From the NCBI GenBank assembly GCA_030746435.1, contig JASLMV010000008.1:1-64000 (forward strand): a stretch of 64,000 bases of DNA, written 5' to 3'. Within the stretch, counting starts at the first letter, position 1. Each line of letters begins with the position of its first letter. Below, in pieces: positions 59,485 through 64,000 of this stretch. Below the pieces are notes generated by a model. That model was given only the letters and a program-made list of their open reading frames with translations, made no database searches and was not told the DNA's origin. Origin of the DNA: Gammaproteobacteria bacterium (lineage in GTDB: Bacteria > Pseudomonadota > Gammaproteobacteria > Steroidobacterales > GCA-2729495). The translations under genes and the position numbers were made by a program.

Positions 59485-60029
59485 GAAGTGTCCCCTTCGA
59501 CAAATAAATCGGAGTATTCAGACAACTAAAAAATGGTGGTCAATATGGTTTATCGTAGTTTGCGACCAGTGCGTACCTTACTACATGTGCAGTCGGGCGC
59601 GCACCTTTAAACGTAATGGCGCAAAGCGTTTCCACCAGCCGCCCGGCCCCCCGCGCGACATCGCCGAATATCCCCCGTTCTTGTTGCTAAATCCGTAGCT
59701 AATACGGACCCAGAAATGCTCAATCCTTTAAGCCTTTGGCCCCGTTAACAACGAATACGTTCGGCCAGGCTCATCGCATTCCACGGACGCCTGCAATCAA
59801 GCATTAATCCGGGCTTTTAAGCACAAGTTGGCCAAAAAAACCGGGCGGAAGAATAGCACAAGGGGGGCACTACGCCACCCCCGAGGAAGCGGGTCTGCCG
59901 GACGCTCCCGCAGCGCGGCCGGGGCGCAAACCCGTGGCGCTTGAATGCCATGGCTCCAATTTAATTAACCATTGGTTAAACAATTATTTGCAGACTATTT
60001 CTCATAAGGATACCAATCGACGCTGGCAG

Positions 60030-60049
60030 GGAGACCTCCGGAGGTCTCC
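60030..60049. repeat. Perfect 20-bp palindrome upstream of leuL
   Basis: GGAGACCTCC is directly followed by its reverse complement GGAGGTCTCC, with no spacer. It lies about 115 bases before the leader ATG. The length and perfection suggest a dimeric regulator site; without a loop it is a poor RNA hairpin centre. Confidence 0.55.
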
Positions 60050-60100
60050 GTGAGGGCCGTAACCCTTCGGCGCGTGTCGTGAGAACCGCGAAATGTGAAC

Positions 60101-60123
60101 GCGTTTGCTTAAAATTCAAACGC
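60101..60123. promoter_or_regulatory. GCGTTTG-N9-CAAACGC dyad before leuL
   Basis: A perfect 7-bp inverted repeat with a nine-base AT-rich spacer containing TAAAAT (60110-60115), a five-of-six -10 match. It may be an operator overlapping the leu promoter. No good -35 box is present, so the promoter assignment is tentative. Confidence 0.4.
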
Positions 60124-60165
60124 TTGAGGTTGACAATAACCGGCGATTGGAGGAATATCCCGCGA

Positions 60166-60288
60166 ATGTCTTACACCACTGTATTTCAGACGATTGCAGA
60201 CCGGGCGCCCGGCGTGGGCCGTATCCTGGTGCTGTTGCTGCTCCTGGCAAGCCGGGAGAAACGGTGGTGCGGACACCAGACCGGGTAA
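60166..60288 (+). CDS. leuL: Leucine operon leader peptide
   Basis: A 40-codon open frame with a GGAGG ribosome site 12 bases before its ATG. Residues 20-27 are ILVLLLLL: six leucine codons plus one valine and one isoleucine among eight consecutive codons, a hallmark of branched-chain amino acid attenuation. It ends at TAA 60286-60288, 20 bases before a terminator stem and 120 bases before leuA. Ribosome stalling at the leucine codons when charged leucyl-tRNA is scarce should let the antiterminator form. The peptide itself probably has no other function. Confidence 0.88.
   Translation: MSYTTVFQTIADRAPGVGRILVLLLLLASREKRWCGHQTG
60241..60258 (+). promoter_or_regulatory. Pause/protector hairpin overlapping the last leader Leu codons
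   Basis: CTCCTGG (60241-60247) pairs with CCGGGAG (60252-60258) around a four-base loop, using one U-G pair. The 5' arm contains the last leucine codons, so a stalled ribosome would prevent it. This fits the 1:2 hairpin of classical attenuators. Confidence 0.55.
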
Positions 60289-60324
60289 AAGAACCCTCAA
60301 GACATAGAAACCCCGCACCCCACC
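60263..60324 (+). promoter_or_regulatory. Predicted antiterminator of the leu attenuator
   Basis: GGTGCGG (60266-60272) is exactly complementary to CCGCACC (60313-60319), and GGT (60263-60265) can pair with ACC (60322-60324) past a two-base bulge. The right arm includes the 5' half of the terminator stem, so the two structures exclude each other. Confidence 0.65.
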
Positions 60325-60342
60325 AGGTAGCGGGGTTTTTTT
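60308..60342 (+). terminator. Attenuator terminator before leuA
   Basis: AAACCCCGC (60308-60316) pairs with GCGGGGTTT (60330-60338), with a 13-base loop and a T-run to 60342. It lies between leuL and leuA. In leucine excess the ribosome finishes leuL and this stem should form. Confidence 0.88.
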
Positions 60343-60407
60343 ATGCCGCAGATTGAGTAACAAGCGGCGCTGTGGTTAGTGTAGAGAGTAGATATGGAGA
60401 GCAGGCG

Positions 60408-62006
60408 ATGAACGAGCGCGTTGATGATCAGGGTAACGATCAGAGCGATGATCACGTAATCATCTTTGATACGACCCTCAGGGACGGCGAGCAGGCCCCG
60501 GGCTGCAGCATGACGCTGCGCGAAAAGCTGCGGGTGGCCAATGCTCTGCGTGAACTGCAGGTCGACGTCATCGAGGCCGGCTTTGCGGCCGCCTCCCCGG
60601 GCGACTTTGATTCTGTCCAGGCAATTGCCGAGCAGGTACAAGGCCCGGCTATCTGCAGCCTCGCCCGCTGCCACCCGGAGGACGTTGCGCGTGCGGCGGC
60701 TGCCGTAAAGCCTGCAGAACGCAGCCGCATACATGTATTCGTGGCGACTAGCGAAATTCATCGCAACCTCAAGCTGCAAATGGCCAAGGAAGAAATCATT
60801 CGGCGCGCCGTAGAATCCGTGCAACTTGCCCGCGAACATTGCGACGACGTCGAGTTTTCGCCTGAAGATGCATCGCGCACGGAACCGGGCTACCTGGCTG
60901 AAGTCGTGCAGGCCGTTATCGAAGCCGGGGCACGCACCGTAAACATCCCGGACACCGTGGGTTATACCGTGCCCGGCGAGTTTGCAGAACTGTTCGCCTA
61001 CCTGCGAGACAACGTGCCGAACATCGGCGATGCGGTGCTGAGTGTGCATTGTCACGACGACCTCGGGATGGCAGTCGCAAACAGCCTTGCGGCGGTCAGC
61101 GCGGGCGCAAGGCAGATCGAGTGCACGATCAACGGCATCGGCGAACGAGCCGGCAACTGCTCGCTCGAAGAAGTCGTGATGGCGCTGGACACCCGGCAAA
61201 ACTATTTCGGGGTCAGCTCGAACATCGATACGTCGCGGCTGTATCCGACCAGTCGGCTCGTGGCGAGTATTACCGGCATGCACGTGCCGCGTAACAAGGC
61301 CATCGTGGGTGAAAACGCTTTTGCCCACGAGGCCGGCATACACCAGCACGGCATGCTTAAAGATGCATCAACCTACGAGATCATGAAGCCTGAAAACGTC
61401 GGCCTGAGCCGGTCTAACCTCGTACTCGGCAAGCACAGCGGCCGGCACGCTTTTCGTGAACGCGTCGGGCAGCTGGGCTTCGAACTGGACGACGAAGAAA
61501 TAAACCGCGCCTTCGATGACTTCAAGAACCTGGCGGACCGCAAAAAGGAGCTGTTCGACGGTGACATCGAAGCCATCATCATGAACGTGGGCGAAACAAG
61601 GCCGGGCCCCTGGACGCTGGAGGAACTGCAGATCTCGGCCGGTACGGGCAAGATTGCCGGCGCTGCAGTCAGAATGAGCCATAGCGACGGGCGCAACATA
61701 AATGAGGCGGCTGTCGGTGACGGGCCCGTCGAAGCAGCGTTCAAAGCACTGGAACGGGTGGCCGGGTTCTCCCTGGAGCTGCGCAATTTCGAAGTCCGCA
61801 GCGTAACCATGGGTGAAGATGCCCAGGGTGAGGTAACCGTAACCGTGGAATATAATGGCCACAGTTACCGCGGCCACGGCATCAGTACCGATATCGTCGA
61901 AGCGGGTGCGCTGGCCTACCTTGAAGTGATAAACCGCGTGAGCCGGCGTATAGAATCCGGGACGGATAAACCGGCAGCCCCGTCGGCGGATGCGGCCGCG
62001 GTCTAG
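60408..62006 (+). CDS. leuA: 2-isopropylmalate synthase
   Basis: First committed step of leucine synthesis: condenses acetyl-CoA with 2-oxoisovalerate. I start it at ATG 60408 with a GGAG ribosome site (532 aa); a GTG frame reaches 60372. The catalytic barrel has [16 protein letters not shown] (about 20-35) with the metal-site Arg/Asp, and [13 protein letters not shown] with metal histidines. The C-terminal LeuA regulatory domain, which binds leucine for feedback inhibition, covers about 385-510. Controlled by the attenuator upstream. Followed by ilvE after 33 bases. Confidence 0.95.
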
Positions 62007-62039
62007 CGTCGCAACGGCACAGCCATAAAGAGGAACACA

Positions 62040-63002
62040 ATGCCCATTAATAAATGCGACTGGATCTGGCAGAACGGCAAGATGGTGCCCTGGGATGACG
62101 CCCGGGTGCACGTGTTGGCGCATGGCCTGCACTACGGTTCCTCGGTATTCGAAGGCATCCGTGTGTACCCGACGCCGGCCGGCCTGAGGGCTTTCAGGCT
62201 TGCGGCTCACACGAAGCGCATGTTTGAGTCCGCCAAGATTCACCGTATCGAAATCCCCTACTCGCCGGAGGAAATCAACGCCGCATGCCGCGAGGTTGTA
62301 ACGCGCAACCAGCTAAGCAACGGGGCCTACATACGGCCGATCGCATTTCGCGGTTACGGCGAGATCGGTCTCGCGCCGGAAAATGGCAGCCCGATCGACA
62401 CAGTCGTCGCCGCCTGGGAATGGGGGGCGTACCTGGGCGCGGACGCTTTGGAAAAAGGCGTGGATGCTGGTATCTCATCCTGGCAACGCGTCGCACCCAA
62501 TACACTGCCTGCGCTGGCCAAGGCCGGCGGCAATTACCTGTCGAGTACGCTGATCAGCCAGGAGGCGAAAGCCAACGGGTTTCACGAGGGCATTGCACTG
62601 GCAACTGACGGCACCGTCAGCGAAGGTGCCGGCGAAAACCTGTTCCTGGTAAAGAACGGCAAGGTCTATACGCCGCCCTCCGCGGCCGCGATCCTGACGG
62701 GCATTACGCGCGACACGATCATTACGCTGGCAGCCGATGCCGGTATCGAAGTGATCGAGCAGTCCATCCCGAGGGAAATGTTGTACATCGCGGACGAATT
62801 GTTCATGACCGGTACTGCTGCAGAAGTAACACCTGTACGTTCCGTCGATCGGATCGCGATTGGCGAAGGCAGCCGCGGCGACATTACCCGCATTCTGCAG
62901 GAACTGTTTTTCGGCCTGTTCGGCGGCACCACGGAAGATAAATGGGGTTGGCTCGAACCGGTGGAAGAAAGCACAGGCTCGAGCAAGTCGGCGGCCGGAT
63001 AG
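62040..63002 (+). CDS. ilvE: Branched-chain amino acid aminotransferase
   Basis: PLP enzyme for the last step of leucine, isoleucine and valine synthesis. The 320-residue class IV protein has HYGSSVFEGIRVY (about 31-43), the PLP lysine at 161 in ALAKAGGNYLSS, the phosphate-binding ILTGITRDTI and GTAAEVTPVRSVD. AGAGGAA ribosome site. Its place between leuA and leuC puts the final transamination under leucine attenuation. Confidence 0.95.
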   Translation: MPINKCDWIWQNGKMVPWDDARVHVLAHGLHYGSSVFEGIRVYPTPAGLRAFRLAAHTKRMFESAKIHRIEIPYSPEEINAACREVVTRNQLSNGAYIRPIAFRGYGEIGLAPENGSPIDTVVAAWEWGAYLGADALEKGVDAGISSWQRVAPNTLPALAKAGGNYLSSTLISQEAKANGFHEGIALATDGTVSEGAGENLFLVKNGKVYTPPSAAAILTGITRDTIITLAADAGIEVIEQSIPREMLYIADELFMTGTAAEVTPVRSVDRIAIGEGSRGDITRILQELFFGLFGGTTEDKWGWLEPVEESTGSSKSAAG

Positions 63003-63051
63003 AAACTAAAGAAACGCAAAAAACAGATTCATGGCTAACGGCTAAAGCCGG

Positions 63052-63085
63052 TCATAACGACAGCGACCGCGACTCATAACGACAG
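63052..63085 (+). repeat. 12-bp direct repeat in the ilvE-leuC spacer
   Basis: TCATAACGACAG occurs at 63052-63063 and 63074-63085. The second copy runs into the leuC ribosome site AGGAG. It looks like a small local duplication. Confidence 0.7.
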
Positions 63086-63100
63086 GAGACATGATCCGCC

Positions 63101-64000
63101 ATGGGTGGAAAATCGCTTTTTGAGAAAGTCTGGGACGACCACGTCGTCGTGCCGGAAACTGAAGATACGCCGGCGGTGTTTTACATCGACCTGCATATCG
63201 TGCACGAGGTAACGACACCCCAGGCATTCAACATGCTGCGGGAAAGCGGCCTGCCCGTGCGGCGGCCCGACCTCGTGCTCGCGACTATGGACCACTCTAC
63301 CCCGACGGTACCGATCACGAACCTTGACGAGAGCCTTGACGCGGCGTCGGATCCGGAACCTGCAAACCAGATACGGGCGATGGTCAAAAACTGCGCAGAC
63401 TTCGGGATCGAGCTGCACGGATTCGGTAGCGCCCAGCGCGGTATCGTGCACGTAATAGGGCCCGAGATCGGCGCGACGCAGCCAGGTAAAACCATCGTAT
63501 GCGGCGACAGTCATTCGAGCACCCATGGTGCGTTCGGCGCGATGGGTTTCGGCATCGGGACAACCGAAGTCTGCCACGTGCTCGCGACGCAGTGCCTGCT
63601 GCAGCGTAAACCGAAAAGCATGGCGGTCAACATCACCGGCAAGCTCAAACCCGGGGTGGGCGCCAAGGACGTCATCCTCGCACTGATCGGCAAAATGGGC
63701 GTCGATGGCGGCACAGGCCACGTCATCGAGTACCGCGGTGAAACCATACGCGGGCTGAACATGGAAGAACGGATGACCATCTGTAACATGACCATCGAAG
63801 GCGGCGCACGTGCCGGCATGATTGCGCCCGACGAAACGACATTCGAGTTTCTAAAGGGCCGGCCGCAGGCACCCCAGGGCGCTGACTGGGACGCCGCAGT
63901 CGAGCGTTGGCGCAAACTGGTTTCTGATGACGACGCCGTGTTCGACAAGGAAGTCAACCTGGACGTTTCCGACCTCGAGCCACACGTAACCTATGGCACC
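63101..64000 (+). CDS. leuC: 3-isopropylmalate dehydratase large subunit, partial (3' end outside window)
   Basis: Large subunit of the [4Fe-4S] isomerase that converts 2- to 3-isopropylmalate. The first 300 residues match E. coli LeuC closely from memory: [48 protein letters not shown] and [20 protein letters not shown]. The cluster cysteines lie beyond the window end. ATG 63101 starts [16 protein letters not shown] is 12 bases upstream. An out-of-frame ATG at 63091 opens a ten-codon frame overlapping the start. leuD is expected next. Confidence 0.95.

Follow-up and report, generated by a model that had tools for sequence, protein, structure and literature searches.

A ribosome-mediated attenuator very probably controls the leuA-ilvE-leuCDB operon of this uncultured gammaproteobacterium, with transcription predicted to start at, or one base before, the AUG of the leader peptide, leaving no 5′ UTR. 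The mechanism is the known classical one, probably in a variant lacking the 5′ UTR. Its leader, terminator and antiterminator complementarity, the gene order, the conservation of the whole and the fixed distance between promoter and ATG were established by reading the sequence and comparing it with relatives. Throughout, the window is the whole stretch of 64,000 nucleotides analysed, and coordinates refer to it. Its relevant features are the following.

60130-60158, + strand: predicted sigma-70 promoter (TTGACA 60130-60135, 17-nt spacer, GAATAT 60153-60158)
60149-60153, + strand: GGAGG, Shine-Dalgarno-like, 12 nt before the ATG, seen in the sequence
60166-60288, + strand: leader peptide ORF, 40 codons plus TAA, with counterparts in relatives
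60223-60246, + strand: control codons 20-27, I-L-V-L-L-L-L-L, six of them Leu
60241-60258, + strand: candidate pause hairpin spanning Leu codons 26-27, from the predicted fold
60263-60272, + strand: antiterminator 5′ arm, in the last third of the leader ORF, from folding and swap tests
60308-60342, + strand: intrinsic terminator (stem 60308-60316/60330-60338, T-run 60336-60342), conserved in relatives
60313-60321, + strand: antiterminator 3′ arm, with 60313-60316 common to the terminator's 5′ arm, from folding
60408-62006, + strand: leuA, 2-isopropylmalate synthase (NCBIfam NF002086 and TIGR00973, above cut-off)
62040-63002, + strand: ilvE, branched-chain amino acid transaminase (TIGR01122, 418.5 bits, cut-off 245.55)
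63101-64000, + strand: start of leuC, which runs past the window end; leuD and leuB lie beyond

Parts of the attenuator

The original prediction described a 40-codon leader with six Leu codons followed by a terminator, and both were found in the sequence. The leader is translated as MSYTTVFQTIADRAPGVGRILVLLLLLASREKRWCGHQTG. The terminator stem has nine pairs plus three more inner pairs, and its hairpin was calculated at -18.6 kcal/mol. The antiterminator had been given as 7 bp plus 3 bp past a bulge: the seven pairs (60266-60272/60313-60319) and the one-base bulge are there, and two pairs (60263-60264/60320-60321), not three, lie past it, followed by a few outer pairs. Folding bore out its reuse of the terminator's 5′ arm. 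The hairpin claimed to overlap the last Leu codons (CUCCUGG-CAAG-CCGGGAG, over the last two of them) is likewise present in the sequence and in the predicted fold, and the fold of the leader RNA beat 200 out of 200 dinucleotide shuffles (z -4.58). All the named parts of a classical leucine attenuator were found in this way, in an arrangement conserved among relatives.

An Rfam search of the window gave zero matches at gathering score. The model RF00512 Leu_leader reached 15.2 bits (E 2.9), under its gathering cut-off of 50, and the weak matches to NsiR1, Trp_leader and Leu_leader were rejected as matches to the terminator. A simple consensus scan missed both the leader terminator, because its loop exceeds the length allowed by the tool, and the leader promoter, because the -10 hexamer lacks its first T.

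The leuA gene starts at the ATG at 60408, its reading frame being open from a GTG at 60372. The operon order is leuA-ilvE-leuC-leuD-leuB. Between leuA and ilvE lie 33 nt, between ilvE and leuC 98 nt, and a consensus scan of 61850-63200 on the genes' strand detected no promoter and no terminator. The contrast with leuABCD drawn in the original prediction, namely that ilvE comes under the same control, is true and at the same time ordinary for the family: the leuA-ilvE-leuC order occurs in 28 of 29 leuA-bearing family genomes, and the 29th leaves its contig inside ilvE. In the second set of relatives, mostly of Dyella, Rhodanobacter and Luteibacter types, ilvE stands between leuA and leuC in 21 of 23 loci. 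Membership of ilvE is a family rule, so it is nothing special.

Some further observations concern the surroundings. A second class IV aminotransferase of the same genome (PF01063) is encoded at 2287-2946 on the minus strand of the window, and a perfect inverted repeat, GGAGACCTCCGGAGGTCTCC, occupies 60030-60050, on the stretch that separates the divergent genes from the leu promoter. About 2.7 kb beyond the window end, a small TrpR-like gene (L158:8727-9034), which may resemble YerC/HisR, stands just before an apparent histidine operon; the hisG-like gene there gave zero NCBIfam matches at E <= 1e-60.

A promoter predicted to start transcription at the leader start codon

The first reading of this DNA overlooked a predicted promoter which puts +1 at the leader start codon. 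TTGACA-17-GAATAT has the top score in 59850-60200 (9.2; the next different site scores 6.8), and its predicted +1, at 60165/60166, coincides with the leader's ATG. The pattern TTGAC[AT]-N17-GANNAT recurs in relatives at equal distance from the leader ATG. By eye, promoters of the kind TTGACN-N17 or N18-GANNAT or TANNNT could be discerned in 19 of 20 leaders. Promoter scans used an E. coli sigma-70 matrix.

We scored 43 leaders from two sets of relatives with a scan blind to the ATG; one of the 44 loci, L011, was dropped since the pattern missed its terminator (a second rule gives it a predicted UTR of 7). For 39 of the 43 leaders the predicted +1 lay no more than 2 nt from an ATG, against a background of 6.2% of positions in the same regions, and in all 39 this nearest ATG opens an ORF ending shortly before the terminator. 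The four misses were L021 (decayed leader), L033 (no good promoter), L059 and L069, the last having an alternative promoter that gives a UTR of 1. In 80 loci, read on both strands, a blind scan asked for a promoter positioned at an ATG, with a short ORF and terminator after it. It returned 36 matches, among them 35 Leu/Val/Ile-rich leaders belonging to leuA or ilvC-leuA; shifting the ATG offset in five ways gave 1, 7, 1, 4 and 4. The same scan applied to 60 further genomes of the order gave 21 matches, against 2, 8, 2, 2 and 2 with shifted offsets. Genome-wide, the promoter-ATG pattern matched twice in the window's own genome, at the leu leader and at one other place, with zero matches in the backward control.

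The predicted start at the ATG is not universal among relatives. Under one rule, 67 of 107 loci have a predicted UTR of -2 to 4 nt: 21/24 in family f1, 2/2 in f4, 13/16 in f7, 3/3 in f13, 2/2 in f14 and 22/23 in the second set, then 1/4 in f2 (its other three loci are leaderless matches in the blind scan), 3/19 in f11, 0/7 in f6, 0/2 in f9, and 0/4 in f12 and 0/1 in f16, where the terminator was not found. In family f6 (L173-L179), of the same order, a 5′ UTR 15-25 nt long is predicted for the same attenuator in 7 of 7 loci, a natural contrast to the leaderless form.

In textbook attenuators the ribosome is loaded at a Shine-Dalgarno site. The leaders studied here are, as a group, without one: their mean anti-SD pairing is -3.0 kcal/mol, with 3 of 39 at or below -6. 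Random upstream sequence pairs at least as well (-3.1 on average, and 15% reach -6 or lower). The corresponding values are -6.5 for ilvE (10/22 at or below -6) and -7.3 for leuC (26/39). As a control, the E. coli leuL leader had its +1 placed 29 nt upstream and an anti-SD pairing of -8.3. The window's own leader does have GGAGG, which a +1 at 60165/60166 would leave untranscribed, as part of the promoter.

Alternative readings

This GGAGG is one argument for the same leucine attenuator with an ordinary short 5′ UTR, in which transcription would start at about 60144 and the ribosome would load at GGAGG. Its pairing, -9.3 kcal/mol, is the strongest of the 39 leaders; initiation at 60144 from a second promoter, TTAAAA-17-GACAAT (score 6.8), would bring it into the transcript; and family f6 shows that leadered versions exist (predicted UTR 15-25 nt, 7/7). 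That promoter is nevertheless outscored by TTGACA-17-GAATAT (9.2 vs 6.8), and 12 bases from GGAGG to AUG is long. Moreover, four congeners (L003-L006) share the promoter-ATG distance, with a predicted UTR of 1-2, and do not have GGAGG between the -35 and the ATG. We thus regard the short UTR as unlikely, if worth keeping in mind, and leaderless initiation as likely in the clade, though with slightly less certainty in the window's own species.

Other doubts concern what is sensed and whether anything is sensed at all. The leader might read the branched-chain amino acids jointly rather than leucine only, because the control run includes one Ile and one Val codon. All three amino acids are served by ilvE, and Dyella-type relatives have mixed runs, e.g. 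LVLVLLIT, upstream of an identical gene order. Joint sensing nonetheless appears rather improbable, for Leu makes up six of the eight codons of the run, Ile and Val have at most one codon each, and congener runs read e.g. LLLLLL, LLLLL or LLLL. It is scarcely credible that there is no attenuator here, and instead a plain terminator after a chance ORF or a small RNA gene with its end there. The NsiR1 match which could speak for a small RNA (RF02399, 60283-60344, 25.6 bits, below the cut-off of 39) lies mainly over the terminator; the upstream gene, being on the opposite strand, needs no terminator; and leader, control codons, arm and terminator recur jointly in relatives. The reading that we favour remains a leucine attenuator transcribed from the leader start codon.

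Timing of the switch

Folding under alternative constraints, suggested along with the original prediction, was run for a series of ribosome positions, the RNA counting as accessible from 16 nt beyond the first P-site base onward. For a transcript that stops at 60328, short of the terminator 3′ arm, the antiterminator has a probability of 0.86-0.91 when the P site is at codons 21-29 and of 0.00 from codon 31 on: it is possible in the first case and impossible in the second. The Leu codons 21-27 fall exactly within the permissive positions. Once complete, the terminator has an equilibrium probability of 0.99-1.00 at every ribosome position. Since the finished terminator wins the equilibrium everywhere, the switch must be kinetic.

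We infer the following sequence of events, from transcription start to read-through. RNA polymerase would initiate on the A of the leader AUG or on the base preceding it. With no 5′ UTR made, a ribosome would load directly at the end of the mRNA. When Leu-tRNA is scarce, the ribosome would stall at codons 21-27; the arm 60263-60272 would then be free to pair with 60313-60321 while the 3′ arm of the terminator is still to be transcribed, so that the terminator is pre-empted and the operon read. When Leu-tRNA is plentiful, the ribosome would reach codon 31 or beyond and cover the arm, and the terminator 60308-60342 would form.

Among 90 leaders, the terminator arm was bound by upstream RNA (>0.5) in 87 with the ribosome stalled at the middle Leu codon and in 6 with the ribosome at the leader's end; both halves of the switch were satisfied in 65. 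The antiterminator-when-stalled score is weakly specific, because in most groups the mean for shuffled spacers is likewise about 0.5-0.6. In the window, the first codons of the leader can pair with the antiterminator arm; this 'protector' abolishes the antiterminator when no ribosome is present (0.017). As a general feature it was dropped, 13 relatives giving 0.25-1.0.

As for translation of the leader, counts by codon position over codons 2-20 of 14 Rhodanobacteraceae-type leaders display no excess at the third position (580, 607, 650), hence the amino-acid level gives no confirmation of translation there.

Conservation in relatives

Conservation of the leader frame, on which the original prediction had been made to depend, was examined in family f1 (40 genomes, 29 with LeuA at E <= 1e-100). 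Of these 29, 20 carry a Leu-rich leader and a terminator immediately ahead of leuA. No ilvC directly precedes leuA in 22 of the 29, which divide into these 20, one with a weakened and one with a lost leader. The weakened leader, in G033, has three Leu, and one of the 20, in G037, has a Leu-rich leader with terminator but without recognisable promoter and start. At L021 (G013), promoter and terminator are kept and the Leu leader is gone, which resembles a decayed attenuator. Three loci (L020, L023, L025) appear to be duplicates of L032, L034 and L033, respectively; for two of the pairs the latter copy was analysed, and G018 (L020/L032) was read only in the blind scan over 80 loci.

In the remaining 7 of 29 genomes ilvC directly precedes leuA, and in 3 of 3 examined, leader and terminator precede ilvC. 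These are the ilvC-leuA operons L145, L146 and L147, with the attenuator before ilvC. The attenuator therefore stays at the operon head whichever gene comes first, and ilvC appears to have been gained or lost by the operon downstream of an attenuator that kept its place. For stand-alone ilvC, including that of the window's own genome (G000), no attenuator of the leaderless kind was detected in the 11 stretches scanned. In a class-wide control, 39 of 40 genomes had no Leu leader plus terminator before leuA and one was doubtful; with so few positives the control is little informative on leadered leu attenuators elsewhere.

We also observed, in the Roseiconus family of Planctomycetes, a Leu-rich short ORF and a terminator before leuA in 23 of 30 loci (L227-L256). 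Such leaders were first seen in L068, L073, L078 and L081, with terminators e.g. AACCCGAGTC...GACTCGGGTT. A start at the ATG is predicted for 8 of these 23 leaders; the criteria were loose and some of the short ORFs may be due to chance.

Covariation of the arms

A check of covariation in the two stems had also been proposed. It was uninformative for the terminator stem, which is nearly invariant. For the antiterminator, leader arms and terminator arms were exchanged among genomes, and cognate arms paired modestly better than swapped ones in both sets. In the family set (24 loci), the mean duplex energy was -20.95 for cognate and -19.58 for swapped arms, with 25 of 5000 permutations as good; in the second set (23 loci) it was -19.67 and -18.55, respectively, with 0 of 5000 as good. 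Contiguous pairing beyond the core extended over 2.08 pairs with cognate and 1.68 pairs with swapped arms, the best of 200 swaps reaching 1.92 (n=92, four loci without an arm being left out). Compensated changes from U-A to A-U beside the core were observed in L019, L105, L111, L222 and L223. The advantage of cognate arms is genuine if modest; rows from relatives are not independent of one another.

Comparison with known systems

The leuL attenuators of leuABCD in E. coli and Shewanella, the latter described in PMC2659441, are like the one found here in having a leader with Leu codons and a competing antiterminator and terminator before leuA. Here, in contrast, ilvE is in the operon, the order is leuA-ilvE-leuCDB and +1 is predicted at the leader AUG; also, the window's leader scores below the cut-off of Rfam's Leu_leader. 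In Campylobacter jejuni, LeuL is a 28-aa leader with five Leu codons before leuABCD, and the search described in PMC3847290 required leader ORFs to have a ribosome binding site; the known mRNA class is leadered there, whereas a leaderless one is predicted here.

Leaderless attenuator peptides are described from Actinobacteria. The leuL, ilvL and trpL mRNAs of Streptomyces lividans begin at the start codon, and leuL1 precedes leuA without a typical terminator (PMC8079986); ilvBNC of Corynebacterium glutamicum is discussed as leaderless in PMC11857589. These cases share with ours a control-codon peptide at the mRNA start, predicted in our case, and belong to a different phylum with other peptides. 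In Sinorhizobium meliloti, the ATG of the leader ORF forms the 5′ end of rnTrpL (PMC7298713). The trpL leader RNA and peptide also act in trans in that organism; there the amino acid is tryptophan and the organism an alphaproteobacterium. According to the survey of 2010 in PMC2965389, leader peptides were then reported from Proteobacteria and Actinobacteria only, besides its own Firmicutes case. For Gammaproteobacteria or Planctomycetes we found no leaderless attenuator peptide in the literature searched, which included few subscription papers; Vitreschak et al. 2004 could contain a gammaproteobacterial case.

Significance

A leucine attenuator is an expected device at this place, overlooked in this lineage by Rfam's model, and the comparison supplies a family-wide annotation of an unannotated leader. 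It also suggests that ilvE is tied to leucine supply across the whole family. The leaderless layout matters more, as the coupling of the first ribosome to polymerase would start at a bare 5′ end. Leaderless and leadered versions stand before identical genes within the lineage, so the effect of a 5′ UTR on attenuation is testable by comparison.

We give even odds to a broader proposal, that leaderless leucine or branched-chain attenuators form a widespread and undescribed class, found in this order, in Rhodanobacteraceae-type Gammaproteobacteria and, separately, in Pirellulaceae-type Planctomycetes, in which the control peptide is read from a bare 5′ end by 70S-type initiation. If this is true, attenuation would be set by the moment at which the first ribosome catches the 5′ end and not by a ribosome binding site, and the sister families with UTRs of 15-25 nt would represent an evolutionary switch between the two modes.
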